64,000 bases of DNA from Pirellulales bacterium. Lineage in GTDB: Bacteria > Planctomycetota > Planctomycetia > Pirellulales > Pirellulaceae. Of this stretch, positions 36,329-42,419 are shown one piece after another. Both the position numbers and the translations under genes were made by a program. The stretch is taken from the NCBI GenBank assembly GCA_022451045.1, contig JAKUOW010000004.1, forward strand, positions 1 to 64,000. The letters are read 5' to 3'. The first letter of the stretch is position 1. Each line of letters opens with the position of its first letter. Under the pieces are notes generated by a model. It had not been told where the DNA came from, did not search any database, and was given only the letters and a program-made list of their open reading frames with translations.

Positions 36329-39300
36329 TTAGTTTTGTTCGTCGGCCCAGTTATCTAGTTGGGTGCAGATGTCATCAAAACTAATGAATTGCGGTGGAAC
36401 GGCACTCTTTAAATCCAGTTCTCCGAGCCGCCATCCGAATGGGCTTCGAAGTATCTCGACTTCCTCTTCTAAGGCGAGGAGCCATTCAGGGACATCGACA
36501 CCAGAGCCACTGGGTGATTGCAGGAATTTTTCGGTTTCAGTTTTGAGTTTTTCAAATGCAGCTTTAACTGTTTCCGGATCCGATTCTGCATCGTTGATAG
36601 ATGGTTTAACCAGTGACCTCATGAAATCAATGGCCATCGGTTGGACAAATCTTTCACTAAGTCTATCGCAAACGGACTGCATGCGCATTGAATAACGAGA
36701 TTGGAGATCGTTTAACTTGTTCTCGAACGAGTCAGCTTCATCGCTGATTCGATCTGCTAAGCCGTTTCTCCATGTTTCAGCAGCATGTTCACGTTCGTGT
36801 GAAACGAGAATCTTATGGGCAAGAATTACTGGGCGGAGATTCCAACAAATGCGGTCGTACTTCGCACGTAGTCGAATGAAGTCCAGCAGCATATATAGCT
36901 TGTCACCCTGATCACTTTGCGTTGTCGTCCCGTTGTAGTCGCGGTACTCATGATAGTTTTCAACGATCGACTCGAGAATCAAGTCGAGGTATTTCGCAGC
37001 ATCCGCGACATTGATTGTTCCGTTTTCCAAATCATCCAGCAGCTTCAGGGATACGTAACCATCAGCCTGAAGTGAGTCGAGCCATTGCGGCACACCCTGA
37101 AGCAAGATACCGCGTATATTGCCCATCGCGAGAAAGTGTTGGGTGAACAACTCCTCGCCATAGTCTTTGATGAATTGAATGATTGAGTCCCAATTGTTTG
37201 GGTCGGATACGATTTCAAGTCGCGATAACTGCAACGTCTGGCTATGAGAAAGCCAGCTTACCAATAGCGCCTCAGTGACTTTCTCAAGCGTACGGACGAG
37301 TTCTTCTTCAATGACATCGAGAGTCTCTTCGTCGGTGGAATTGCTGATCATGTCAGCTGAATTCTCGATAAGATATTCAACAAGTGACTGATAGCCGATC
37401 GAAAAGAGAGTATCAAATTCTGTTACCGCACCCGGGCCCACCGGGTGGTTTCGTTCCATATCTCTGGCGATTTCAATCAAATCGCATGTTTCCCAAACTA
37501 GGCCAAGACGTGGCAGCCAACGCAACAGGTCGGTAATAACATGTTGCCTGATTCTACTGGTCGCGATTTTTTGCGGACTTCCGCCCCGATTTAGTCGGAC
37601 GTAAAGTAACGGGCATTGTAATAGCCCGTTCTTAAAAAGTGACCAATGTTCGCGAACGGCATTTGTGTCTCCGGCGAGCACGGCGGCAAACACCCTTTGA
37701 GTTAGCCCATCTAATTCGAGGATCGCCCCAGCCGGCGGTTGTTCCTTACCCAAAAGATGGTCCAGAAACAGTGAGGTGGCCTGCAATAGACGGCTGGTGT
37801 TTCCGATTTCGACCATACTGGAAATAATTCTTTCCAGTAGAGAGTCGAGTGTCACTCGGAGTCGATCGTATTCGATCATGGACTCATGATCGGCTTGTGG
37901 CTCAGCGACTTCATAGGATCGGACAAATTGAACCAGATCGTTCAGTTGGGTTTCAAATGAAGCTGTATGAGCAGTCCACTGGCGAACGGAATTCACCGTA
38001 TCTTCTATCAAGTCAGTTGGTGCATCATCCAGTTTATGGATCACCTTACATTGGTTAAGAACAGCGTTAGACCAGAGATTGGCGACCGTATCCAAAAAAG
38101 TCAGGCGAGCGTCAATGAAGTCGCCGGCACGTATCAACTCATCCTGATCGGAGTTGTTGTTTTCAAAAATACTGCCATCGATTCCGTCATCTGTCGTGTC
38201 ACGATAAGTGAAGTGTTCATATGCGGCGCCGTACAAGTCGTCGTCGAGAGTGTCATCTTGATTCTCGACTTCTTCCTGAACCCACTCATGCTCAATTAGG
38301 AATTCCGGCACACGCCAGAGCTCTTCAGCATTCGCTTCAAGAAAATCAAAGAATTTACGAATTCGCGTCCATTGTTTTGACGCCAATTCGGCATCTAGTT
38401 TTTCATCCGAGACGTTTCTCGCTTCGTCGAGCCATCGCCTTGCCAACAGATAGAAAGAGCTCTCACTTTGTTCCAACGGGATATCTTCAGAGCGGCTGAG
38501 CCAGTGTACAAGCAACGCCATTGAGGCGATGAGGTCTTTCTTTCTGATCAACGTGTGGATGACAAGTGAATAGGCTTTCGGGGAGTCAAACGAGTCAGCA
38601 AATGGAGCCCAAAAACCGATATTTCCAGCAGCAGCCCCATCCTGTTGCCAGGCATTGAGGGCAGCTGCCACTCGGCTTGATGCCGTATAAAGCTGTTGTG
38701 GATCTGACGCTGAAACACTTGAAACAGTATGTGCAGCAAACTGTCTCCACCACTTGGAAGTTTTCTGAAAGGCACTTTCTGTGGATGCCACTAGTTCATG
38801 ATTGTTTGTTGCAGATGCCTCACTCCAAATCCTGGCGAGAAGTGCAAATAGCTGTTCGACCATGACGATCAACTCATCTGCACGATGATCATGAGAGCTG
38901 TTCTCTAATGCAGGGAAGAGGCTAAAGTTTGCATCAAAGCCCAGGATGTTCCATGGGTCAATGAGGCTACCATGCTCTATACCATCAAGAATTAACTGGT
39001 AGATCTGTTTTGCATTTTCAGATGCGCGTTCCAATTCGTCTGTTTCGAGACATTTTGCGGAGTCGTCCAGCAGACACGCGATTTTACAACGCGTGCGAGC
39101 GGAAGAAACTTTGACGAATTCAACTTGCTTCTGTGCAGCATCGTGTTGGCCGATGAACGCGAAGACCTGAGCTAGATGGACATGTTCAAGTTGCTGGGCC
39201 TTGGTCTTGGTTAGACATGCATTCAACTCCTGCCGTGCAGCGCCAAATGGTTGCAATCTCTCGGCGGCCTCTCGTTTAAGACGGTCGACATGTGGTGACG

Positions 39301-40300
39301 ACAAACGTTCGATGAGTGAATGATAAAAATCGTCACGGTAGCTCGCGATGTATGGCATCAGTTTGGAGAGCGTCGTTTCAGAAGCATGGCAGTCAGGGCT
39401 GTTTCCGCTAATTCCGCTTGCCATCAGAATCGTGCCCGCTAAAACCGCTGCGCCTTCTAATAGCGCTTCCTGGTACTCCATGTCGCGCGATTCGTTGACT
39501 CGCTTTAGGACGGCATCAAGCGTTACTTTTTGGATAACGAATCGATCATAGAATCCACCGGAATTAATCTGGTTTGGATCCCACATTCCGAATTGATGAT
39601 TGGGCCGCTTGTTGGACGGATGATCAAAGTCGTAGCTTCTTGGATCGTATGCCAGTTCATCCAGTGTATTAATGTCGAAAAACGCTCTACGTAAAATCGA
39701 CTCATTGGTATCTTTCAACAAGTCAATGGTGAGTTCAATCAGTTCCTGAAATGGACCGCTGCACACACCGGCGTTCGCAATGTACAACGGTACAGGCCTG
39801 ATTTTTTCATGTGGATATGGTTCGTGCCTATGAGTTTCAAGAGTCGCAATTGGTCGATAACCAACAAAGTCATTCAGGTAGTGAACCGCCTGATCCGCAA
39901 CGACCGGATTTTCCCATTCATCTTGTAGCTTCAATACCACATCAAACACGCGTCCAATAAAAAACGTGTTTATAGTTTCGTTCACGTCGTGAGCGTTGAG
40001 CACTTGCTGATGAAATGTCAGAAAGCTGGGAATCACGTGTGAGAAAACAAGTTCGACTGCTGTTCTCGCCTGATTAGAGCTCGACAGTACGCCACTGCTG
40101 CCGTTGAGTTCATCTAAGGCAGACAACATCGCACTTTGCATCGATATGTAAAGTAGATCACCGTCTTGTTTAATGGATTCATCGACGGTTCTTAGATTGC
40201 TATAGAACGCCGCATCATGGCTGCCCGATGAGAAATTGATATATCCTAACACCTGTTCAAAGGCGTTTTTTTCTCCAGAACTTAGTTCCGAGAACTTCAT
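36329..40300 (-). CDS. Large orphan protein of 1323 residues, unknown function
   Basis: This is a very long, apparently soluble protein. No signal peptide, membrane helix, nucleotide-binding motif or protease motif is visible. Composition suggests almost all-helical structure, with many Leu/Glu/Ala-rich stretches and few Gly or Pro. The most distinctive block is near residues 150-260: RPVPLYIANAGVCSGPFQEL, then DFDHPSNKRPNHQFG and WDPNQINSGGFYDRFVI. This block has the look of a strongly conserved motif. An acidic stretch (EEVENQDDTLDDDLYGAAYE) lies in the middle. I believe similar large proteins occur in other planctomycetes, but no function is known to me. It may be a scaffold. It is encoded divergently from the PQQ-propeller protein. 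Confidence 0.85.
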   Translation of the reverse strand: MKFSELSSGEKNAFEQVLGYINFSSGSHDAAFYSNLRTVDESIKQDGDLLYISMQSAMLSALDELNGSSGVLSSSNQARTAVELVFSHVIPSFLTFHQQVLNAHDVNETINTFFIGRVFDVVLKLQDEWENPVVADQAVHYLNDFVGYRPIATLETHRHEPYPHEKIRPVPLYIANAGVCSGPFQELIELTIDLLKDTNESILRRAFFDINTLDELAYDPRSYDFDHPSNKRPNHQFGMWDPNQINSGGFYDRFVIQKVTLDAVLKRVNESRDMEYQEALLEGAAVLAGTILMASGISGNSPDCHASETTLSKLMPYIASYRDDFYHSLIERLSSPHVDRLKREAAERLQPFGAARQELNACLTKTKAQQLEHVHLAQVFAFIGQHDAAQKQVEFVKVSSARTRCKIACLLDDSAKCLETDELERASENAKQIYQLILDGIEHGSLIDPWNILGFDANFSLFPALENSSHDHRADELIVMVEQLFALLARIWSEASATNNHELVASTESAFQKTSKWWRQFAAHTVSSVSASDPQQLYTASSRVAAALNAWQQDGAAAGNIGFWAPFADSFDSPKAYSLVIHTLIRKKDLIASMALLVHWLSRSEDIPLEQSESSFYLLARRWLDEARNVSDEKLDAELASKQWTRIRKFFDFLEANAEELWRVPEFLIEHEWVQEEVENQDDTLDDDLYGAAYEHFTYRDTTDDGIDGSIFENNNSDQDELIRAGDFIDARLTFLDTVANLWSNAVLNQCKVIHKLDDAPTDLIEDTVNSVRQWTAHTASFETQLNDLVQFVRSYEVAEPQADHESMIEYDRLRVTLDSLLERIISSMVEIGNTSRLLQATSLFLDHLLGKEQPPAGAILELDGLTQRVFAAVLAGDTNAVREHWSLFKNGLLQCPLLYVRLNRGGSPQKIATSRIRQHVITDLLRWLPRLGLVWETCDLIEIARDMERNHPVGPGAVTEFDTLFSIGYQSLVEYLIENSADMISNSTDEETLDVIEEELVRTLEKVTEALLVSWLSHSQTLQLSRLEIVSDPNNWDSIIQFIKDYGEELFTQHFLAMGNIRGILLQGVPQWLDSLQADGYVSLKLLDDLENGTINVADAAKYLDLILESIVENYHEYRDYNGTTTQSDQGDKLYMLLDFIRLRAKYDRICWNLRPVILAHKILVSHEREHAAETWRNGLADRISDEADSFENKLNDLQSRYSMRMQSVCDRLSERFVQPMAIDFMRSLVKPSINDAESDPETVKAAFEKLKTETEKFLQSPSGSGVDVPEWLLALEEEVEILRSPFGWRLGELDLKSAVPPQFISFDDICTQLDNWADEQN

Positions 40301-40742: not shown

Positions 40743-42419
40743 ATGCGAAAGCTCTTTATTGTTGCCCTGTTTCTCGTTGCCCAGATCTTGGTCGCGACAT
40801 CCGCCGCAAATGCACAGTTTGCACGTAAAGGGCTGATTGATCGTAATGCAGCACGTAATGTTGGATTGGAACGTACCTGGCATTTGCAGGTACCTATGAA
40901 TCCATATGCAAGTGAGATAAAGGATGTCTATGTGCACGTAAGTACGCAGCAGGCTCGCTGGGTTTATGAGGTTCAGCAAGGTCCCAAATCATGGTTCTTT
41001 GCAGACGATCAACTTGATCGGTTTGGGCGGCCCATCGGTAAGAAAGCAGCTGAGATTCTGGCTGCTAATAAGAAAGCCGAGTTAGGCGACGCAGAGATTG
41101 TTGAACATGGTGTACCGACCGTACGTATCGCGCTGCTCACTAATCGAGGCGATGTCACACTAGTTGATGGCGAGACTGGTGCTGTTTTGTGGACGAAAAC
41201 GGTTGGTAACCCGCGACACGCAGCTGTAGGTGTTTGCACGAATGATGAACTGACCGTCGTGCTTACAGGGCTGCGCATGTATGTGATTCGCAATTCAGAT
41301 GGTCATGTAATTACCGAGAAGATTACCAAGGGAGTTGCAGGTGCTAGCCCAGTGATCACCGAGCGTCGAACAGCACTAACATTTAACTACGAAGCAAACC
41401 GGGATGGCGAGAATTCCTATTCAATGATTTATGTTCCAACGATTGAAAATCGGATGGATCTATACGATCTGGATAAGGAAATTAAAACCGGTGGACCCGA
41501 CGCATTGGCTTCCTATCCAAAAGGTCTACCTGGATTTGGCCGTGGTCTGATGCAACCAACGCTTGGCTCTACGTCGGTTGCATGGCCTACCGATCAAGGC
41601 ATCGTATATGTCGCAAATCTTGTAACAAATAATGTGGATCGTCAGCTTAGGACGCTCGGTACTATCACTTCACCGGTGGCTTATATCCCAGGCGTAAGAA
41701 GGTTCTTAACGGCTTCAAGTGATGGTTACGTATATTGCTTTAGAGAAGATGATCCCGATGACATGTGGCGAAGTAGCATTGGTGAACCAATTTATCGCGA
41801 ACCAATTCTTGTAGATGGTAATGCGTATGTAGTTACACGTGGTCACAAGTTGCATCAACTGGATCTGTCGACAGGCGCTGAAAAGTGGATCGTACCAAAT
41901 GTAGAACGGGTAATCTCAATCAGCGACAACCGCATTTACTGCGTTCAGGTTGGCGGTAATCTGATGGTACTGGATGAAAATCAGGGTACACCTCTGCGTA
42001 CAGTTCCGATGCAGTCTGTCGACTTTACTTTTCTGAATACGATGACTGATCGGATGTATATCGGAACCAAAGATGGATTGCTTCAGTGTGTACGTGAACT
42101 GAATCAGACTTTTCCGGTTGTTCATACCAAGGCATCAGAATCTGCTGTCGCCGACGCCGCTGCGGCTGATGCCAATGCAGCAGATGATCAGCCAAAAGAA
42201 AATCCATTTGCACCGAAGCCAGCCCCAATGCCAAACGCTGGTAATGCAAATCCATTTGGAAAGCCTGCCAACAATAATAACGGCGGCGGTAATGCCAATC
42301 CGTTCGGGCCGCCTGCTAATGGCGGCGGCAATGCAGGTGGCAATAACGCAAATCCGTTTGGGCAACCTGCGAACGGTGGTGCTAAACCAGGTGCCAACCC
42401 ATTTGCTCCTCCTAAATAG
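40743..42419 (+). CDS. Secreted PQQ-type beta-propeller protein with NPF-repeat tail
   Basis: The 558-residue protein starts with a signal peptide (MRKLFIVALFLVAQILVATSAANA). Residues about 90-450 form a PQQ/WD40-like propeller, seen in repeated blades such as DGETGAVLWTKTVG, SSDGYVYCFREDDPDDMWR, STGAEKWIVPN and YIGTKDGLLQCVREL. No catalytic dehydrogenase residues are evident, so it is likely a binding or scaffold propeller. The tail (about 470-558) is low complexity, rich in Asn, Gly, Pro and Ala, with the tripeptide NPF five times (ENPFAPKP, ANPFGKPA, ANPFGPPA, ANPFGQPA, ANPFAPPK). It should lie outside the cytoplasmic membrane. A plausible promoter is upstream. Function is unknown. Confidence 0.85.
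   Translation: MRKLFIVALFLVAQILVATSAANAQFARKGLIDRNAARNVGLERTWHLQVPMNPYASEIKDVYVHVSTQQARWVYEVQQGPKSWFFADDQLDRFGRPIGKKAAEILAANKKAELGDAEIVEHGVPTVRIALLTNRGDVTLVDGETGAVLWTKTVGNPRHAAVGVCTNDELTVVLTGLRMYVIRNSDGHVITEKITKGVAGASPVITERRTALTFNYEANRDGENSYSMIYVPTIENRMDLYDLDKEIKTGGPDALASYPKGLPGFGRGLMQPTLGSTSVAWPTDQGIVYVANLVTNNVDRQLRTLGTITSPVAYIPGVRRFLTASSDGYVYCFREDDPDDMWRSSIGEPIYREPILVDGNAYVVTRGHKLHQLDLSTGAEKWIVPNVERVISISDNRIYCVQVGGNLMVLDENQGTPLRTVPMQSVDFTFLNTMTDRMYIGTKDGLLQCVRELNQTFPVVHTKASESAVADAAAADANAADDQPKENPFAPKPAPMPNAGNANPFGKPANNNNGGGNANPFGPPANGGGNAGGNNANPFGQPANGGAKPGANPFAPPK

Follow-up and report, generated by a model that had tools for sequence, protein, structure and literature searches.

The window analysed here, a 64,000-nucleotide stretch of a Pirellulales bacterium genome, contains a long orphan gene and, transcribed divergently from it, a gene for a secreted beta-propeller protein. 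The two genes and the segments of the orphan product lie at the following positions.

36329..40300, minus strand: orphan gene, 1323 aa, a single uninterrupted open reading frame with an ATG start
38741..40300, minus strand: N-terminal module of the orphan, residues 1–520 (AlphaFold2 pLDDT 92.5, pTM 0.91; no PDB fold match)
39539..39658, minus strand: core motif, residues 215–254 (ELAYDPRSYDFDHPSNKRPNHQFGMWDPNQINSGGFYDRF), with nine invariant columns in 73 homologues and short strands in the model
38153..38287, minus strand: acidic, length-variable linker, predicted to be disordered, residues 672–716 (pLDDT ~42–57)
38177..38227, minus strand: short motif of the linker, residues 692–708 (AAYE..xYRDSTDDG in homologues), with D701 and D705 invariant
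37616..38152, minus strand: long helices, residues 717–895, the least conserved part of the protein
36815..36937, minus strand: C-terminal conserved patch, residues 1122–1162 (YN.TTTQSD.G...R..W...P....H)
40743..42419, plus strand: secreted PQQ/BamB-like beta-propeller with a C-terminal [N/D]PF-repeat tail, divergent from the orphan, with synteny at the level of the order

The orphan frame is a genuine, intact gene and not a chance reading frame. The 1323-residue frame described in the original prediction, which was made from the DNA letters alone, was confirmed by a full-length counterpart with 98% protein identity in a sister species, and about 150 full-length homologues were recovered. Between the window gene and that of the sister species, 21, 7, and 88 substitutions were counted at codon positions 1, 2, and 3, respectively, and the low dN relative to dS (0.0085 vs. 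0.110; dN/dS ~0.08) indicated strong purifying selection. The protein had also been described as soluble, and this description was borne out: its most hydrophobic 19-residue window reached a mean of only 1.74, and neither a signal peptide nor a transmembrane helix was evident in the 1323-residue sequence. In addition, every homologue is strongly acidic, with a pI of 4.5–5.7 and a net charge of −32 to −118.

The orphan could be assigned to no curated family and to no solved fold. Its best matches in Pfam (E = 0.11), NCBIfam (E = 0.17), and a PDB sequence search (E = 0.13) were all far below the cut-offs, the PHROG scan returned nothing near its cut-off (best E = 0.072), and a profile built from 73 sequences found nothing in the PDB. 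When 30 homologues were each scanned against Pfam, no consistent match was obtained. The earlier description of a protein with no recognised domain therefore stands, and no clear match to a characterised family over most of its length was found. No TPR or HEAT family of Pfam matched the window protein, and TPR_19 was reported in only 2 of the 30 homologues (best E = 0.16). Moreover, profile self-comparison with hhalign detected neither tandem repeats nor internal similarity, and an internal duplication was rejected on this basis. Assignment to a defence system was likewise rejected, as the PADLOC scan gave zero matches for the orphan and the gene belongs to the class-wide core.

The orphan gene belongs to the Planctomycetia, in which it occurs in single copy and is inherited vertically. 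It was present in 58 of 60 near relatives and in 111 of 149 genomes across the class, as full-length orthologues that are almost always single copy; named carriers include Blastopirellula marina DSM 3645, Roseimaritima sediminicola, Aeoliella straminimaris, and Candidatus Laterigemmans baculatus. In two phylum-wide draws (199 and 246 genomes), matches were confined to members of the Planctomycetia. Families f21, f101, and f103 each formed a single clade in the orphan tree, and no well-supported branch contradicted a single origin of the Pirellulales or of family f100. These family clades, together with the single copy, fit vertical descent. A mobile or viral origin was rejected, as no relatives were found on plasmids or viral contigs. 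All of the orphan-negative class genomes among those listed (20 of 38) belong to family f99, which is probably the Isosphaeraceae. When 26 f99 genomes were searched with the profile, chance matches alone were obtained (E ~0.5), and hidden orthologues in this family were rejected, since the frames concerned were a TPR protein and its antisense frame, plus unrelated frames.

Conservation was evaluated over residues 1–1200 using 73 sequences with 32–51% identity to the window protein, and 45 invariant columns were identified. Nine of them (D219, R221, D224, P228, R232, G238, W240, D241, and R253) fall within the 35 residues from 219 to 253, where about 1.3 would be expected under an even spread. 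The conserved core motif recognised by the original prediction is thus the conservation peak of the orphan, and it may mark a binding site, as was proposed at the time. Further invariant residues are R322, Y326, Q350, R356, N360, D448, D471, and R473 in the N-lobe and S1129, D1130, G1132, R1150, W1153, P1157, and H1162 in the C-lobe. Among columns conserved at 97% or more, tryptophan was enriched sixfold and glycine, proline, and arginine were also enriched, with lysine and isoleucine absent. In family f102 (locus L190, G259), a full-length copy has diverged extremely and sits on a branch longer than six changes per column. This copy shows 21% identity in the alignment, so that residue correspondences are approximate, and by this approximate alignment it retains about half of the residues that are nearly invariant elsewhere. 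The residues kept are E215, D224, H227, R232, D241, R253, R322, Y326, Q350, R356, N360, D471, and R473 in the N-lobe and S1129, D1130, and R1150 in the C-lobe; D219, R221, and W240 appear, in an uncertain alignment, as E, D, and Y, respectively.

The AlphaFold2 model of residues 1–1200 (mean pLDDT 89.4, pTM 0.81) is mostly helical and two-lobed. It is helical from residue 3 and has short strands only, with a small strand-containing core exactly at the motif. The protein had been expected to be all-helical, which agrees with most of the model but not with this core. The N-terminal module was folded alone (residues 1–520) and compared with 350,542 PDB chains using Foldseek, and no match was obtained at E ≤ 0.001. 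Among the matches listed, the best query-normalised TM was 0.20, and the sole target TM above 0.5 belonged to a designed helical binder of 103–104 residues. The confident prediction of this motif-bearing module and the lack of a solved fold matching it agree with the earlier suggestion of a specific fold, and the module is predicted to represent a new fold, in the sense of one absent from the PDB by Foldseek. A search of the viral fold library with the orphan gave nothing at E < 0.1. The predicted disordered linker varies in both length and sequence among homologues, yet terminates in the conserved short motif.

The 1–1200 model matched only generic TPR/HEAT-type structures in the PDB (E down to 9e-5, TM ~0.1; TM ≤ 0.24 among the matches listed), and these weak solenoid matches appear to indicate stacked helices only. 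TPR/HEAT hubs such as Ski3, IFT-A subunits, Ctr9, and importins (PDB 4buj, 8fgw, and 7dkh) are long, helical, and soluble like the orphan, and the local stacking of helix pairs is shared with the model. The orphan differs from them in its overall TM, in the lack of sequence similarity and of tandem repeats, and in its core, which contains strands and bears the invariant polar motif; in none of the matches listed did the TM to a solved solenoid exceed about 0.5.

The divergent PQQ-propeller gene reported beside the orphan is present and matches Pfam PQQ_2 (E = 2.9e-14), whereas its score against BamB (42.9 bits) is far below the NCBIfam equivalog cut-off of 285. Unlike BamB/PQQ_2 propellers, it carries a Pirellulales-specific [N/D]PF tail. 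The gene is a conserved neighbour within the Pirellulales, where it was divergently adjacent to the orphan in 21 of the 26 genomes whose positions were compared, but not beyond this order, as no such adjacency was seen outside the Pirellulales among the positions listed. Among the 61 named loci whose flanks were long enough, 33 show this divergent adjacency. PQQ relatives occur in family f99, where the orphan is missing; most Gemmata-like f100 genomes carry the orphan but no PQQ relative at E ≤ 1e-25, and their MotA matches are weak or generic. A role of the PQQ gene as a functional or obligate partner was therefore rejected: the synteny in Pirellulales is real, but the genes dissociate across families, and the neighbour is not to be read as a functional partner for this reason.

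In the window, the tail of the propeller protein (42198–42416, plus strand) is of low complexity and comprises five [N/D]PF repeats ending near the C-terminus. Pirellulales orthologues carry up to nine such repeats, and relatives tested outside the Pirellulales have at most one copy. Within the last 20 residues of the neighbourhood set, DPF occurred 37 times and NPF 34 times, vs. 0–3 occurrences for control tripeptides. This tail could serve in secretion, anchoring, or docking. The same DPFG-rich tail was observed in Pirellula-like genomes on another secreted family (L105 6926–7645, L113 3–821, L115 3940–4632, and L127 3547–4407), which is unrelated to the first and by eye TPR-like, and the presence of this tail in two unrelated secreted families suggests a shared tail signal.

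In the Planctomycetaceae-like genomes (f21), a MotA/TolQ-like channel is instead encoded divergently next to the orphan, and the two genes after it specify proteins with one predicted membrane segment each; the MotA/TolQ-like gene adjoins the orphan in 13 genomes of five genera. The MotA/TolQ/ExbB-like cassette was observed at L155 (12473–17476), L156, L160, L163, and L164. Its channel protein has a long coiled extension and is weakly ZorA-like, with relatives elsewhere in Pirellulales genomes, and the trio has the look of a chromosomal proton-motor cassette not described before. The trio was rejected as a universal partner because it is adjacent in part of f21 only and its matches are generic in many orphan-bearing genomes. 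A search for a partner gene that travels with the orphan across the class found none, and the neighbours hint at an envelope context without establishing a partnership. Downstream of the orphan in one Pirellulales genome, a protein of 559 residues that matches nothing in Pfam was also observed (L177 12103–13779, plus strand), in which a repeated helical unit (...LSRLVKNVTT... / ...LARLVQELTT...) is followed by a domain that is nuclease-like by eye.

The reading that we favour, at a probability of roughly 0.4, is that the orphan is a cytosolic hub whose new-fold core binds a specific ligand or partner. It would be a Planctomycetia-specific housekeeping protein, large, helical, and built of two lobes. 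The N-terminal core (residue 1 to about 520) would hold a fixed charged and aromatic set (D219, R221, D224, H227, R232, W240, D241, R253, R322, Y326, Q350, R356, N360, D448, D471, and R473), which most likely lines one putative pocket for the ligand or partner. The middle helical array would lead into the flexible acidic linker, whose invariant short motif would dock onto the orphan's own lobes or onto a partner; conservation of this motif amid variable disorder is what a docking motif would predict. The C-lobe would carry the second conserved patch (TTTQSD.G ... R..W...P....H). In favour of the hub are the full-length conservation with its concentration of invariant columns at the motif, the confident 1–1200 model and its generic hub-type matches, the single copy that follows the family grouping of the tree, and the residues retained in the diverged f102 copy. 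The analysis establishes the conservation, the distribution, the predicted helical two-lobed architecture with its disordered linker, and the lack of a known fold; we infer the single pocket, the binding role, the hub function, and the cytosolic location. Against the hub stand the local and weak character of the solenoid resemblance in a protein that has no sequence repeats, the lack of a partner gene accompanying the orphan class-wide, and the fact that invariant polar residues of this kind would suit an active site just as well.

The main rival is an enzyme of new fold, in which the D/R/H/E/W set of residues 215–253, together with R322–N360 and D448–R473, would form the active site and the rest of the chain would be structural. 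Invariant polar residues are typical of active sites, most of the N-lobe set survives in the diverged f102 copy, and the model places a small alpha/beta core at the motif. However, neither the sequence nor the structure searches matched a catalytic fold or family, the orphan does not lie within a conserved cluster of metabolic genes, and three residues of the set (D219, R221, and W240) are changed in the f102 copy, as far as the uncertain alignment can be followed. We consider an enzyme possible but rather doubtful.

An envelope machine in which the orphan supplies the cytosolic part and works with its divergent neighbours is an unlikely reading; these neighbours would be the PQQ-propeller in the Pirellulales and the MotA/TolQ-like proton channel with its two single-TM proteins in Planctomycetaceae-like genomes. 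Both neighbour sets relate to the cell envelope, and the adjacency counts given above for each argue for such a machine. Nevertheless, the neighbours differ between orders, the dissociation seen in f99 and in most f100 genomes applies to this machine as well, and the PQQ protein is secreted, whereas no export signal is evident in the orphan. Binding of nucleic acid or ribosomes, as by an RNA- or DNA-processing scaffold comparable to Ski3 or Ctr9, is still less probable. The top generic Foldseek matches are RNA or transcription scaffolds, and arginine and tryptophan are conserved, but these matches reach a TM of only ~0.1, no nucleic-acid-binding domain was found, and the acidity of all homologues disfavours general nucleic-acid binding.

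PVC membrane-coat-like proteins, for example Gemmata gp4978, combine an N-terminal beta-propeller and stacked helix pairs in one polypeptide (PMC2799638). Like the orphan they are planctomycete proteins of more than 1000 residues with helical stacks, and in the Pirellulales a propeller gene lies next door, but the 1–1200 model contains no propeller in the orphan's own chain and the neighbouring propeller is of the secreted PQQ/BamB type and not an obligate companion. That the orphan and its neighbour form a split version of such a protein, with the propeller supplied by the adjacent gene, is suggested by a solenoid-like protein beside a propeller gene in a phylum known for these coats (PMC2799638), but is highly improbable, because the defining architecture has both domains in one chain, one product is exported and the other is not, and the genes dissociate in evolution.

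The orphan might also form the cytosolic centre of an envelope or division machine specific to planctomycetes, in which the new-fold core with its putative pocket would be connected through the docking-motif linker to complexes of the envelope, for example the TolQ-like motor encoded divergently in Planctomycetaceae-like genomes; we regard this as a long shot. The novelty lies in the family and the fold and not in a mechanism, and the confidently predicted fold, new with respect to the PDB, makes the protein a useful structural target. With about 1,300 residues maintained in one copy across nearly the whole class, and with dozens of invariant residues, the orphan must serve some need of these cells. 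Planctomycetes display an unusual cell biology, including budding and internal membranes, for which, to our knowledge, few molecular players have been identified, and the class-wide orphan is for these reasons a good candidate for such a player.
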